In this document: positions 4,601-50,363 of the stretch, piece after piece
Layout of the letters: each line of letters opens with the position of its first letter
How positions within the stretch are numbered: position 1 is the stretch's first letter
Assembly (NCBI GenBank): GCA_017999435.1
Contig: JAGNLV010000001.1
Coordinates: 94,501-158,500 of the forward strand
Direction: 5' to 3'
Source: Candidatus Zixiibacteriota bacterium
Lineage (GTDB): Bacteria; Zixibacteria; MSB-5A5; GN15; FEB-12
Length of the DNA: 64,000 bases
Notes under the pieces: model-generated
What the model saw: only the letters and a program-made list of their open reading frames with translations
Told to the model about the DNA's origin: nothing
Database searches by the model: none
Program-made: the position numbers and the translations under genes

Positions 4601-5291
4601 TCAGGTTGCCGAGCAGTTCGCGCGCTTTGGCGGCGGCCGCCCCGGTCGGCTCAAGCTGGAGATACTTTTCCCAGTAGAAGCGGGCCGAGTCCGGCTTGCC
4701 CATGTCGAGATAGACGATGCCGATGTTGAAATTGGCGATGCCGTGTTCGGGGTGGGTCTGCATCACCTCACGGAACTCCTCAATGGCCCGCTCAGGCAGT
4801 CCCATGCCGTGGAGGCAAGCGCCGAAATCGGTGCGCACGTCGGGCGACGACGGATCGAGGGCCAGCGCCCGCCGATAACTCTCGGCCGCCACCGCATAGT
4901 TCCCGGCGTCCATGTACCGGTTCCCCGCCTGCACGAGTCCGTCGTAGTCGGCCGGCAGATCGCTCAGACCTCCGGTCATCCCGCCCATCGGGGCGCCCGG
5001 CACCTCCGGGTGGCCCGCCGGCGTCGCGGCGGAGGGCGGCTGCGGCGGAACGGCGGGGGTCCGAAACACGAACCAGCCGACCGTGATCAGCGCAAGCGCC
5101 CCGACAATGATCGCGCCGTCACGCATCCCGGTGGAGGCGCTGCGCGGCGCGCCCGCGGGAGGCTTTTTCGAGGCGGGTTTCCCGCCGCGGACCGGCTTAA
5201 CGTCAAGGTCGGTCGGCGCGCCGCAGGCGGCGCAGAAACGGTCCCCGGCCGTGAGGGGTTTGCCGCAAGCTGCACAAATGCTGTCCGTCAT
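4593..5291 (-). CDS. Zinc-ribbon, single-pass membrane TPR protein
   Basis: The 232-residue protein begins with a zinc ribbon (CAACGKPLTAGDRFCAACGA, residues 5-24), followed by a basic/proline linker and one hydrophobic segment (AIIVGALALITVGWFVF, about residues 60-77). After a Gly/Pro-rich spacer, the C-terminal half contains three TPR-like helical repeats (GNRYMDAGNYAVAAESYRRA, TDFGACLHGMGLPERAIEEF, FNIGIVYLDMGKPDSARFYW). A cytoplasmic zinc ribbon with an exported TPR tail is a common scaffold design; no enzymatic function is visible. It is the first gene of the operon with the permease and glycosyltransferase and has a good promoter just upstream (5324-5351). Confidence 0.75.
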   Translation of the reverse strand: MTDSICAACGKPLTAGDRFCAACGAPTDLDVKPVRGGKPASKKPPAGAPRSASTGMRDGAIIVGALALITVGWFVFRTPAVPPQPPSAATPAGHPEVPGAPMGGMTGGLSDLPADYDGLVQAGNRYMDAGNYAVAAESYRRALALDPSSPDVRTDFGACLHGMGLPERAIEEFREVMQTHPEHGIANFNIGIVYLDMGKPDSARFYWEKYLQLEPTGAAAAKARELLGNLNG

Positions 5292-46025: not shown

Positions 46026-47102
46026 CTACTCCCGATCCTCTTCCCCGCGGCTCTGCTGCTGCCGCTGCTGCAGCTTGCGCATCACCACCTCATGTTTCTC
46101 CGTCGAATGCCCCGGGCTGACTTTGGCCCGCGGGTCGAGGTACGCTTTCGCGTTGTTGACCGCGATCGCGACCTCGCCGCAGCCGGTCGAGATCAGCTTC
46201 AGCTTCCCCTCGTACGTCACGATATCTCCGGCCGCGTAAATACCTTCTACATTGGTACGCATTCGGGTGTCCACCCGAATGGCGTTTTTGTCCAGTTCCA
46301 GCCCCCACCCCTCGATCGGTCCGAGGTTGGTGAGGAAACCGATGTTGAGCACGACCGCGTCGACCGCCAAGCGCTCCTCGTGGCCGGTCCGGGTCTGCAC
46401 AATGGTCGCCCCCTCCACCCAGTCCTCCCCGCGCAGCTCTTTCAGCTCCCAGAACGGGTAGAGCAGCCGGACCCGGGAGTTTTTCACCTTGCGCACCGAA
46501 TCCTCGTGGGCGGAGAAGAACGAGTTGCGGTGGATGTGAGTGACCGACCGGGCCACCGGTCCGAGCATCATGGAGTAGTCGAACGCCGCGTCGCCACCGC
46601 CGACAATGAGCACGTCCTTGTCCGCAAAATCGCGCAGCCGCCGGCAGAAGTAATAGACGCCGCGGCCCTCGAGTTTTTCCACGTTCGGCACGTCCATCCG
46701 TTTGGGGATGTACGCTCCGAGCCCGGCGCACACGACTACGGTGCGCGTGTAGTGCGCCTGCCGGTCGGTGGTGAGCCGGAACACGCCGTCCCCCTCGCGC
46801 GTCACCTCGGTGACTTTCTCTCCGAGACAGAAAGTGTTGGTCGGGTACTGCGCCGCCTGGGCCTCGAACTGCCGCACGAGATCCTTGGCCAGCACTTTCG
46901 GGAACCCGGCCACGTCGTAGATGTATTTCTCGGGGTAGAGCGCCATGAGGCCGCCCCCCACTTCTTCGAGCATGTCGATAGCCTTGGCCCGCATCATGCG
47001 CAGCCCGGCGTAGTACATCCCGTACATGGCCACCGGCCCGGCCCCGATAAACGACACATCGTAGATGTCGCGCGAGTCGTGTCTTGCTTCGTGTTCGCTC
47101 AT
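46026..47102 (-). CDS. Ferredoxin/flavodoxin--NADP+ reductase, TrxR-like (YumC type)
   Basis: About 358 residues from the ATG at 47102 (MSEHEARHDSRD). FAD motif VSFIGAGPVAMYGMYYAGL and NAD(P) motif DVLIVGGGDAAFDYSMML, with GIYAAGDIVTYEGKLKLISTGCGEVAIAVNNA at the end. The thioredoxin-reductase CxxC is absent (YYFCRRLRD has a single Cys), placing it in the FNR type 2 / YumC branch that reduces ferredoxin with NADPH. Next to a Sec-peroxiredoxin and a rubredoxin-like protein it may supply electrons to the peroxide-reducing chain. Confidence 0.9.
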   Translation of the reverse strand: MSEHEARHDSRDIYDVSFIGAGPVAMYGMYYAGLRMMRAKAIDMLEEVGGGLMALYPEKYIYDVAGFPKVLAKDLVRQFEAQAAQYPTNTFCLGEKVTEVTREGDGVFRLTTDRQAHYTRTVVVCAGLGAYIPKRMDVPNVEKLEGRGVYYFCRRLRDFADKDVLIVGGGDAAFDYSMMLGPVARSVTHIHRNSFFSAHEDSVRKVKNSRVRLLYPFWELKELRGEDWVEGATIVQTRTGHEERLAVDAVVLNIGFLTNLGPIEGWGLELDKNAIRVDTRMRTNVEGIYAAGDIVTYEGKLKLISTGCGEVAIAVNNAKAYLDPRAKVSPGHSTEKHEVVMRKLQQRQQQSRGEEDRE

Positions 47103-47124: not shown

Positions 47125-47574
47125 TTACTCCGCCGCCCGGATCGCCGCCTCCACTTCGTCCCAGGCGGCGTGCCCCCGCGCGGCGAAGACCACCCGTCCG
47201 TCCCGCCCGAGCGCATACACCGTCCGCCGCACGACCAGGAGAAAGGGCGTCTTGCAGCCGAACGCCCGCGTCACCCGCCAGTCGGCATCCGACAGGATCG
47301 GGAAGTGCAGTCCCAGCAGGAGCGCCCACTGGCGGTGTTCCGCGAGGGTCGCCGGATTGACCGCCAGGACCCGCGCTCCGTGCCTCTCGAAATCCGCCCG
47401 CCGGTCTTCCAGACCGGCCAATTGGTGGTTTCACCCGGGCGTGTTGTTCTTCGGGTAAAACACTATCACCGCAAACCGTCCGGCCAGGGCCTCGGTTCCC
47501 AGCCGGCCGCCACTCGAGGCGGGCAGGTCGAACGGCGGCGCGGCACCGCCCACCGGGATCAACGCGCTCTTCAG
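47125..47574 (-). CDS. Selenocysteine-containing peroxiredoxin (BCP/Prx-like)
   Basis: Two open stretches in the same frame are separated by an in-frame TGA (47431-47433). Joined, they form a single BCP-like peroxiredoxin: VGGAAPPFDLPASSG, then FAVIVFYPKNNTPG-TGA-NHQLAGLEDRRADF, then VLAVNPATLAEHRQW and LHFPILSDADWRVTRAFG. TGA occupies exactly the peroxidatic cysteine position of the TPGC motif, and a SECIS-like hairpin follows. I read it as selenocysteine (residue 48). Length ~149 fits the family. Start is uncertain: CTG 47574 behind GGAGG, overlapping the upstream stop, or TTG 47562. A stop/pseudogene is less likely because position and hairpin both fit. Confidence 0.85.
47400..47433 (-). 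promoter_or_regulatory. Bacterial SECIS element with its UGA codon
   Basis: After the UGA come 12 nt, then the stem GCCGGTC/GACCGGC (7 perfect pairs) with loop UGGAA. The loop guanines are 21-22 nt past the UGA, within the range of known bacterial SECIS elements. Confidence 0.75.
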
Positions 47575-48119
47575 CGGTCCTCCCCCGCGCCCCGGTCGCC
47601 GGCCGCCGCGGCGCTCTCGTCTTCGCGCTTCAACTCCGCGAGACACCGAAAGAGCTTGCCGTTGTCGGGCAGTTCCGATGAAGGGACCACCTCGATGTAG
47701 CGGATGATGCCGCGCTTGTCGATCACGACTACCGCGCGCTCGGCGAAGCCCCGTTCGGAGAGCACGCCGTACTTTTCGGCCACGCCGCCGTGCGGCCAGA
47801 AATCGGACATCAGGGGAAACGACAGCCCGCCGAGGGAGCGCGCCCAGGCCAGGTGGCAGGGGCGGGAGTCCACCGAGATCGCCAGCAACTGCGCCTCGTA
47901 CCGCGCGAACTCGTCGATCAACCCCTGGTACTCCGGGATCTGGGTCGCGCACACGGGCGTCCAGTCCCCCGGGTAGAAGGCCAGCACCACGATCCGCCGC
48001 CCCTCGTACCACGCCAGGTTGAGGTCGCCCTCGTTGTGGGTGGGCAGCGTGAAATCGGGGGCCTCGTCACCGACCTCCAGGGTTCTGGTCCGGGTCTTTA
48101 CGCGCTCAGGCGCCGCCAT
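47571..48119 (-). CDS. Peroxiredoxin with normal cysteine
   Basis: About 182 residues from the ATG at 48119 (MAAPERVKTRT). AhpC/TSA fold: LEVGDEAPDFTLPTHNEGD, the peroxidatic FYPGDWTPVCATQIPEYQ with Cys, AISVDSRPCHLAWARSLGGLSFPLMSDF and VVVIDKRGIIRYIEVVP. A second Cys (RPCHLAW) may resolve the disulfide. It reduces hydrogen or organic peroxides. Its stop overlaps the start region of the selenocysteine paralogue, so Cys and Sec forms are produced together. Confidence 0.92.
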   Translation of the reverse strand: MAAPERVKTRTRTLEVGDEAPDFTLPTHNEGDLNLAWYEGRRIVVLAFYPGDWTPVCATQIPEYQGLIDEFARYEAQLLAISVDSRPCHLAWARSLGGLSFPLMSDFWPHGGVAEKYGVLSERGFAERAVVVIDKRGIIRYIEVVPSSELPDNGKLFRCLAELKREDESAAAAGDRGAGEDR

Positions 48120-48136
48120 CGTTCGCCGTCCTGCGG

Positions 48137-48322
48137 TCACTGAAATTCGCCGTAGTACTCGTCATCATCGTCCCCCTCGTCCTCCTCTCGGGCTTCATCA
48201 AGCTCATCTTCCGGTTCGTACCGTTCGGTGAACCGGCTGCCCGGGGCGCCGCAGACGGGGCACACGGGCGGCGGCTCATCGTCCTCGTGGATAAGCCCGC
48301 AGATGACACACTCCCACTGCAT
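48137..48322 (-). CDS. Rubredoxin-like iron protein with acidic tail
   Basis: Only 61 residues. A rubrerythrin-type rubredoxin domain occupies the first ~38: MQWECVICGLIHEDDEPPPVCPVCGAPGS, with two CxxC knuckles binding one iron or zinc. The C-terminal third is extremely acidic (EDELDEAREEDEGDDDDEYY), unusual and perhaps a docking tail. Family knowledge: such small proteins pass electrons to rubrerythrin or peroxidases. It lies between the ferritin-like gene and the first peroxiredoxin. Confidence 0.88.
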   Translation of the reverse strand: MQWECVICGLIHEDDEPPPVCPVCGAPGSRFTERYEPEDELDEAREEDEGDDDDEYYGEFQ

Positions 48323-48378: not shown

Positions 48379-48879
48379 TCAGTGTTCCAGCGGCGACGTA
48401 TCGTCGAGACCGAACCAGAAGTAGTTCCCGGAAATCGCGTCCTTTTCCGCCTGGAGCAGTTCGTAGTGCCGGTGCTCCTCCTCGGCCAGGCTGTCGAAAA
48501 CCTCGCGAAATTCCGGATCGTCCACCAAGTCCCGCTCCGTCTGGTAGTACCGGGTCGCCGCCAGCTCCGCCTCGATGGCGAGATTGATGAATTCCATCTC
48601 GCTCTTGCGTTCCTCCAGCCGTCCCTTGCGGAACACCTGGGCCAGGGCGTTGATCCCCTTCGGCGGCAGGTCGCCGATCTCCGGTCCGATGTGCTTGTGG
48701 AAAATCTCCACGAGCGTGTGCTTGTGGCGCACCTCGTCGTCCCGGAGGTTCTTCAGTTTCCGCTTGGCGTCCGGGTTGGTCGCCCGCTCCATGAGGAGAT
48801 CGTAGAACGTGTAGCCGTCCTCTTCTCCCTTGATCGCCTTCTTGAGCGTCTCGGCGATGTACTCTTTGGTCTTCGCCAT
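48379..48879 (-). CDS. Rubrerythrin-type ferritin-like di-iron protein
   Basis: About 166 residues from the ATG at 48879 (MAKTKEYIAE). A four-helix ferritin-like domain: helix 1 AIKGEEDGYTFYDLLMERA, helix 2 LRDDEVRHKHTLVEIFHKH, helix 3 INLAIEAELAATRYYQTERDL, helix 4 FDSLAEEEHRHYELLQAEKDAI. Glu and His in ExxH arrangements supply the di-iron ligands. The rubredoxin half is encoded separately just downstream, suggesting a split rubrerythrin. Expected role: peroxide reduction in the cytoplasm of an oxygen-sensitive cell. It starts 20 nt after gltX. Confidence 0.88.
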   Translation of the reverse strand: MAKTKEYIAETLKKAIKGEEDGYTFYDLLMERATNPDAKRKLKNLRDDEVRHKHTLVEIFHKHIGPEIGDLPPKGINALAQVFRKGRLEERKSEMEFINLAIEAELAATRYYQTERDLVDDPEFREVFDSLAEEEHRHYELLQAEKDAISGNYFWFGLDDTSPLEH

Positions 48880-48899
48880 ATGGCCCCTTTCCGGGCCTC

Positions 48900-50363
48900 T
48901 CATGAGGCCCCGGGCGTTGCGTGAATATAATCAATGGCCTTGCGCAGGCGCTCGAGAACCGCCGAGCGACCCAGGAGCGCCATGATCTCGTACAGCCCCG
49001 GCCCGGCCGGCATCCCCGAAATCGCCAGCCGCGTCGGGTGTATGACGCTCGCCTTCTTCACCCCCGCCGCAGCGGCCGCCGCCTCCACCGCCCGCTCGCA
49101 GTTGTCGGCCGTCAGCTCCGCGAGCGGTTCGAGCTGGTCGGCTAGGCGGGCCAGCAGGTCGGCCGCCCCCCCGTGAAAATGCTTCGCCGCCGCCGCCGCG
49201 TCGTAGCGGTAGTCGAACGCGAAGAAGTACCCGCCGAGGGCCGCGAAATCGGTCACCCGCCGCACCCGGTCCTTGAGCAGCCCGACCACCTCGCAGAGAT
49301 ATTTCCAGCGCGTCTCGAGCCAATACTTGGTGGTGAGCCCGGCCTCGACCAGCAGCGGGGCCGCCATCGTGGCCAGGTCGTGATTGCTCCGGCGGAGGAG
49401 GTGTTCGCGGTTGAAGGCCTCGAGCTTTTCCTCGTCGAAGACGGCGTTCGAGGCGTTGAAGTAGGCCGGCGTGAACAGCGCGATCAGCTCCTCCCGGGTA
49501 TAGATCTCGCGGTCGGTCTTGGGATTCCACCCGAGCAGGCACAGGTAGTTGAACATCGCCTCCGGCAGGATTCCCTCACGGCTGTACTGGTTGACGTCCT
49601 TGTCCCCCAGCCGCTTCGAGACTTTCTTCTTGTCCGGGCGGAGAATCAGCGGCAGGTGTCCGAACTGCGGAATCTCCCACCCCAGCGCCCGGTACACGTG
49701 GATTTGCTTGAAGGTGTTCGTGACGTGGTCGTTTCCCCGGATCACATGGGTGATCCCCATTTCGTGATCGTCGACCACCACCGCGAGATTGTAGGTGGCC
49801 GACCCATCCGAGCGCGCGATCACCATGTCCTCGATATCGTCGCTGTGCCGGCCAAGGTCGCCGAGCACGAGGTCGTGGAAACGCGTCTCCCCCTCCGGCA
49901 CGAGAATGCGGATCGCGTAGGGCATGCCCGCCGCCACGCGCCGCGCGATCTCGTCCGGCGGCAGCCGCAGGCAGCGCCGGTCGTAGCGGAGCGGCTGCTT
50001 GCGCGCCTTGGCCTCCTCCCGTCCCCGCTCGAGTTCCGCGGGCGTGCAGAAACAGCGGTACCCGCGGCCCAGCTCGAGAATGCGCCGCGCGCAGGCGTTG
50101 TAGGTGTCGAGCCGCTGCGACTGGTACGTGATCGCCTCGTCCCATTGCAGTCCCAGCCAGCGCATGGCGTCGAGAATGGGCGCGATCAGATCCGCCTGCG
50201 ACCGCGCCTGGTCGGTGTCCTCGATACGCACGAGGAACTTCCCGCCGGAGTGCCGAGCAAACAGCCAGTTGAAAATGGCCGTCCGGGCCGTCCCCACGTG
50301 GAGGTAGCCCGTCGGCGACGGGGCGATGCGTACGCGAATGGATCGATCGGTCATTTCCGGCAT
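48900..50363 (-). CDS. gltX: Glutamyl-tRNA synthetase
   Basis: 487 residues, class I aminoacyl-tRNA synthetase. The HIGH-like motif is APSPTGYLHVGTARTA, and the KMSKS-like motif is KKVSKRLGD; other landmarks are RIEDTDQARS, DIEDMVIARSDGSATYNLAVVVDDHEMGITHVIRGNDH and LLGWNPKTD. It charges tRNA-Glu (and often tRNA-Gln in bacteria with GatCAB). The ATG at 50363 directly follows the stop of the upstream gene; an in-frame ATG at 50354 is an alternative. Confidence 0.96.
   Translation of the reverse strand: MPEMTDRSIRVRIAPSPTGYLHVGTARTAIFNWLFARHSGGKFLVRIEDTDQARSQADLIAPILDAMRWLGLQWDEAITYQSQRLDTYNACARRILELGRGYRCFCTPAELERGREEAKARKQPLRYDRRCLRLPPDEIARRVAAGMPYAIRILVPEGETRFHDLVLGDLGRHSDDIEDMVIARSDGSATYNLAVVVDDHEMGITHVIRGNDHVTNTFKQIHVYRALGWEIPQFGHLPLILRPDKKKVSKRLGDKDVNQYSREGILPEAMFNYLCLLGWNPKTDREIYTREELIALFTPAYFNASNAVFDEEKLEAFNREHLLRRSNHDLATMAAPLLVEAGLTTKYWLETRWKYLCEVVGLLKDRVRRVTDFAALGGYFFAFDYRYDAAAAAKHFHGGAADLLARLADQLEPLAELTADNCERAVEAAAAAAGVKKASVIHPTRLAISGMPAGPGLYEIMALLGRSAVLERLRKAIDYIHATPGAS

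Follow-up and report, generated by a model that had tools for sequence, protein, structure and literature searches.

The 64,000-nucleotide stretch of a Candidatus Zixiibacteriota genome analyzed here (the window) contains a peroxiredoxin gene whose apparent stop codon is almost certainly read as selenocysteine (Sec) at the catalytic position. Standard annotation would end this gene at the UGA, with loss of the active site. The analysis shows the motif, the fold and the lack of a conserved second Cys, and we infer peroxidase activity, Sec insertion and the reductant; the proposal as a whole, namely a Sec-peroxidase made by SelB- and hairpin-directed Sec insertion that probably relies on an external reductant in a 1-Sec cycle, is one that we put forward with high confidence.

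The Gene and Its Reading Frame

The gene lies on the minus strand, a point that the initial annotation left unstated, and the features of the locus are as follows.

46026..47102, minus strand: pyridine-nucleotide flavoprotein, TrxR/FNR2-related, without CxxC, candidate reductase
47125..47562, minus strand: Sec peroxiredoxin gene, TTG start preferred, 145 residues with Sec
47127-47125, minus strand: TAA stop of the Sec peroxiredoxin gene
47400..47418, minus strand: bacterial SECIS-like hairpin, stem GCCGGUC/GACCGGC, loop UGGAA (47411-47407)
47431..47433, minus strand: in-frame UGA, predicted Sec codon, peroxidatic position of PxxxTxxU
47571..48140, minus strand: tandem peroxiredoxin Prx1, Cys (DWTPVC)
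48137..48322, minus strand: small protein with a rubredoxin-like domain, position kept in most relatives
48379..48903, minus strand: rubrerythrin-family protein, position conserved

When positions 47577-47125 are translated with UGA read as Sec, they give one open peroxiredoxin, ...AVIVFYPKNNTPG-U-NHQLAGLEDRR..., which runs to the TAA and has the active-site context ...FYPKNNTPG-U-NHQLAG.... The initial annotation had placed the UGA at the Cys of a TPGC motif (codon 47433-47431) and had described a frame that is open on both sides of it and encodes a single peroxiredoxin, and translation confirms it on both points. Its extent of 47125-47574 holds at the end of the gene but less well at the start: the codon at 47574 is an in-frame CTG, a possible alternative start that overlaps the upstream stop (CTGA), and TTG at 47562 is the likelier start codon because it aligns with the ATG starts of relatives (MLPLG, MLEIG). 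In a profile search the protein matches AhpC-TSA (PF00578) at 88.3 bits, against a cut-off of 26.

A Predicted 1-Sec Peroxidase

In a 16-row alignment that includes Cys peroxiredoxins, with residues numbered from the TTG, P37, T41 and C/U44 never vary and R113 hardly does; the Sec family by itself has T46, U49 and R118 (family alignment numbering) without exception. The motif in the window, PKNNTPGU, is a PxxxTxxU. A structure model built from the 16-row alignment (pLDDT 94; an earlier six-row AlphaFold model with pLDDT 50 was left unused) has the peroxiredoxin fold, and the closest structure is Mycobacterium tuberculosis AhpE (Z 24.1, 1.4 A over 145 residues).

The resolving cysteine is where members of the family differ. 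Alignment residue 85, the resolving position in alpha-3, is Cys in 7 of the 15 members found and Ala, Ser or Val in the other 8, while the CxxxxC arrangement, with a Cys five residues past the peroxidatic one, occurs in none of the 15, and 6 of them are free of Cys apart from the Sec position. The window protein, with Ala at residue 85, lacks the resolving Cys that marks a 2-Cys PrxQ; its single other Cys, residue 108, recurs in the member from genome G039 alone. Since the alpha-3 Cys is missing and the sole other Cys is poorly conserved, the protein is probably a 1-Sec enzyme, and the likeliest mechanism appears to be a 1-Sec cycle that draws on a reductant from outside.

Under this mechanism, tRNA-Sec would be charged by SelA and SelD, and Sec would be inserted at codon 44 (TTG numbering) by SelB bound to the hairpin past the UGA. 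The selenolate, held by PxxxT and the conserved Arg, would then attack H2O2 or organic peroxides and become a selenenic acid, and the oxidized enzyme would probably be reduced by an outside thiol or redox partner. The neighboring rubredoxin and flavoprotein are candidate reductants on the strength of gene order.

The alternative that survives best is a selenoprotein that is not primarily a scavenger, for example a peroxide sensor or a thiol oxidase that oxidizes a partner. Small peroxiredoxins can serve as relays, and the absence of a resolving Cys from 8 of the 15 members implies that the oxidized form must react with another molecule, which would suit such a role. However, the peroxidatic motif is complete, the Arg is present, and clustering with rubrerythrin and a second peroxiredoxin is typical of scavenging, so that we regard a sensor or oxidase as unlikely and continue to favor a Sec-peroxidase.

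Gene Neighborhood and Peroxide Defense

In most relatives the gene order is gltX, rubrerythrin, rubredoxin-like protein, Prx1, Sec peroxiredoxin, FNR/TrxR-like flavoprotein, nadA and E2, with exceptions in which the flavoprotein or the rubredoxin is missing or a gltX-like gene is inserted. The reported coupling to a normal-Cys peroxiredoxin is seen in the window, where Prx1 (47571-48140) adjoins the gene upstream in the same direction. The lack of a CxxC motif means that the flavoprotein is not the usual kind of thioredoxin reductase; rubredoxin may plausibly supply electrons to the Sec peroxiredoxin.

The initial annotation went further and assigned the protein to the organism's main peroxide defense. 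This is not established, because the genome encodes several other peroxiredoxins: the Sec enzyme is one of at least four, so that at least three more accompany it, and rubrerythrin is present as well. Two of the other peroxiredoxins lie elsewhere, one a PrxQ (TPGCTTEAC) and one a Cys peroxiredoxin (DWSSGC) that is probably exported and is encoded about 2 kb from selD. Our search for catalase found none.

Conservation of the UGA Codon

Members of the family were sought in 80 genomes of the same order, and 15 were found, the window gene included, in independent metagenome-assembled genomes (MAGs); those with public records are labeled Candidatus Zixiibacteriota, with one Calditrichota. Alignment of homologues had been proposed as a way to see whether others carry Cys or Sec, and the answer for this branch is Sec throughout, the aligned codon being UGA in every one of the 15 members. 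Recurrence of the same UGA in separate MAGs excludes a local sequencing error, which had been named as a possible refutation, and SelA is present in all 15 carrier genomes. When 132 genomes of the phylum were searched with a profile, no Cys member of the branch turned up: the lowest-scoring branch member reached 195 bits, and the next full-length match, at about 118 bits, has no internal stop. The statement that the branch is always Sec covers these 132 genomes and a pattern-limited scan of GTDB contigs. In a tree with the other peroxiredoxins of these genomes the Sec branch forms one clade (support 98/95) with one change.

One copy, in genome G060 (L076/L098; C24, about 284.7-285.1 kb), scores between 195 and about 118 bits; an in-frame deletion has removed its whole active-site segment together with the Sec codon. 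This copy is either decayed or an assembly fault; SelA is present in this genome.

Conservation of the protein runs through the UGA, and third codon positions are the most divergent on both sides of it. Between the window gene and L023, dN is 0.28 and dS 1.75 before the UGA, and dN is 0.50 and dS 1.97 after it. The branch leading to the window copy is long (1.89), so this particular copy may be under relaxed constraint. The long branch, together with the decay that the G060 copy illustrates, is what might be cited in favor of a pseudogene whose UGA arose by nonsense mutation or is an error of sequencing, yet the shared codon in all 15 members from separate MAGs, the purifying pattern downstream of the UGA and the full Sec machinery of the genome leave this explanation very improbable, and we retain the reading of a functional Sec codon.

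Selenocysteine Machinery and the Use of UGA

The window's own genome (3.5 Mb in 7 contigs, 98% complete) was checked for the four genes that the initial annotation had said to look for, and the products of all of them are there, each above its curated cut-off: a tRNA-Sec with a UCA anticodon (67.9 bits, cut-off 47), SelA (500.6 bits, encoded directly before SelB), SelB (313 bits, cut-off 242) and SelD (377 bits). With this machinery and the UGA conserved in every member, the prediction that the organism decodes Sec is well supported. SelD is itself a predicted selenoprotein (G000 C3:411295-412218, L017), with Sec at the usual active-site position in TCAG-UGA-ASK.

UGA ends 28 of the 44 long open reading frames in the window and is the commonest stop codon, and when the 64 kb were screened by the G+C content of codon positions, the Sec peroxiredoxin was the only read-through candidate found. 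With UGA in ordinary use as a stop and the Sec machinery present, a reassigned code and a lack of machinery both drop out as objections. Genome-wide reassignment of UGA to Cys or Trp, which the open frame alone would allow, is the least probable reading of all, against this use of UGA as a stop, the single read-through candidate, and the dedicated tRNA-Sec (UCA) with SelA, SelB and SelD.

Within the order, SelA occurs in 73 of 80 genomes and a TPGU peroxiredoxin in 15; use of Sec is thus nearly universal in the lineage. The locus adds a lineage with SelA in nearly all genomes to the map of selenoprotein peroxide defense. A peroxiredoxin-like protein in genome G030 (L097; C472, about 4678-4992) has a UGA in a UxxC motif (GGWUPYC) and is probably a further selenoprotein; SelA was not found in this genome, which is 81% complete.

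The SECIS-like Hairpin

In the window gene the stem begins 12 nt and the loop 19 nt after the UGA. The published bSECIS model specifies a loop of 3-9 nt with a G in the first two positions and a stem of 4-16 bp, at 16-37 nt from the UGA, with a folding energy (MFE) of <= -7.5 (PMC13188914); the window hairpin has a stem of 7-8 bp, a loop of UGGAA or GGA, a spacing of 19-20 nt and an energy of -13.2 kcal/mol. The earlier description of a 7-bp GC stem with loop UGGAA, placed 12 nt past the UGA as in bacterial SECIS elements, is therefore correct and agrees with the published constraints. Of the 1684 TGA triplets that the 64-kb window has on its two strands, 98.6% are followed by a weaker hairpin than this one, and the segment that holds it has an MFE of -26.3, where shuffled versions average -19.9 (z -2.2). 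Scanned against Rfam at gathering thresholds, the window gave no matches, and hence none to a curated SECIS family.

The best evidence comes from a test in which the protein is fixed, synonymous codons are shuffled and folding is compared across the family. Folding exceeds that of the shuffled versions most clearly in the 13 codons that directly follow the UGA (Stouffer -4.1 to -4.2), the next strongest stretch of the gene reaching -2.4, and we take this as evidence for an RNA element under selection just downstream of the UGA.

At one fixed stem position across the family, 62% of cells are paired and covariation is weak, likely because there are at least two hairpin registers; RNAalifold found no consensus structure on the fixed family alignment. 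In a register scan, 8 of the 15 members, the window gene among them, have their hairpin at 19-20 nt from the UGA, with (U)GGA(U/C) as its loop. In 5 members (G007, G015-G018) the best-scoring hairpin is of the CUC-GGUUC-GAG type, 37 nt after the UGA, and in the remaining 2 (G054, G056) there is a stem with loop CUUGA, which departs from the G rule. The difference in register, about 20 nt against about 37 nt, follows clades (e.g., L023, L026, L027 and L028 against L022 and L024). It is likely, then, that the SECIS-like hairpin changes register within one gene family, which would show how far a SECIS element can shift. No stable hairpin with a loop of the published kind was found at L034 and L035, and L025 conforms to the loop rule weakly.

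Cys/Sec Exchange in the Tandem Partner

Prx1 has a UGA at its own peroxidatic position (mostly DWTPVU) in 12 relatives from two other families of the order (L034, L035, L050, L051 and L089-L096), and G054 and G056 have Sec in both genes of the pair. The Cys/Sec label of Prx1 needs 4 changes on the tree, and these may run in either direction. A Sec-only branch next to a neighbor that exchanges Cys and Sec amounts to a natural experiment on keeping selenium at a catalytic site.

We tentatively consider the possibility, to which we give somewhat less than even weight, of a peroxiredoxin subfamily in the Zixibacteria lineage that is obligately Sec, with no Cys orthologue, with dedicated rubredoxin/flavoprotein recycling and with a partner that switches between Cys and Sec. 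If the obligate-Sec reading is true, Sec is fixed by chemistry and is not an optional upgrade.

Comparison with Known Peroxiredoxins

Sec-containing peroxiredoxins (TxxU/PxxxTxxU) are already known from COG1225 in the Sargasso Sea set (PMC1088965) and from PrxU of Eubacterium acidaminophilum (Soehling et al. 2001, as cited in PMC13188914). Our literature search found no paper on Zixibacteria peroxiredoxin selenoproteins, which is weak evidence of novelty; what is new is the apparently Sec-only branch, together with the conserved cluster of anti-peroxide genes in which it lies.

Like the known Sec enzymes, the window protein is a peroxiredoxin by fold and has Sec as the peroxidatic residue of PxxxTxxU, and its UGA precedes a bSECIS-like hairpin. 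It differs from them in belonging to a small PrxQ/AhpE-like form whose found members are all Sec and in lacking the resolving Cys. No NCBIfam equivalog cut-off is reached, those for PrxQ/BCP and PrxU included, and the score against the PrxU equivalog (NF040737) is 29.8 bits where the cut-off is 270. The thiol peroxidase Prx-SUH (NF045827) is likewise of the Sec type, going by its name and a review's table, but its listed motif is CxxU, and the window protein has no match to it at E<=0.001.

Among Cys enzymes, the best PDB sequence match is Xanthomonas campestris PrxQ/BCP (5iox/5ipg/5iiz; E about 4e-16), whose peroxidatic Cys aligns with the window UGA, so that a TPG[C/U] active site is common to both; the window protein has Sec for Cys, no CxxxxC and Ala at the position of Cys84. 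The best structural match, M. tuberculosis AhpE (PDB 4xih, 1xxu), is a 1-Cys enzyme that needs no resolving Cys, and the window protein, at 26% identity to it, has Sec instead of Cys and would be expected to use different physiological reductants.
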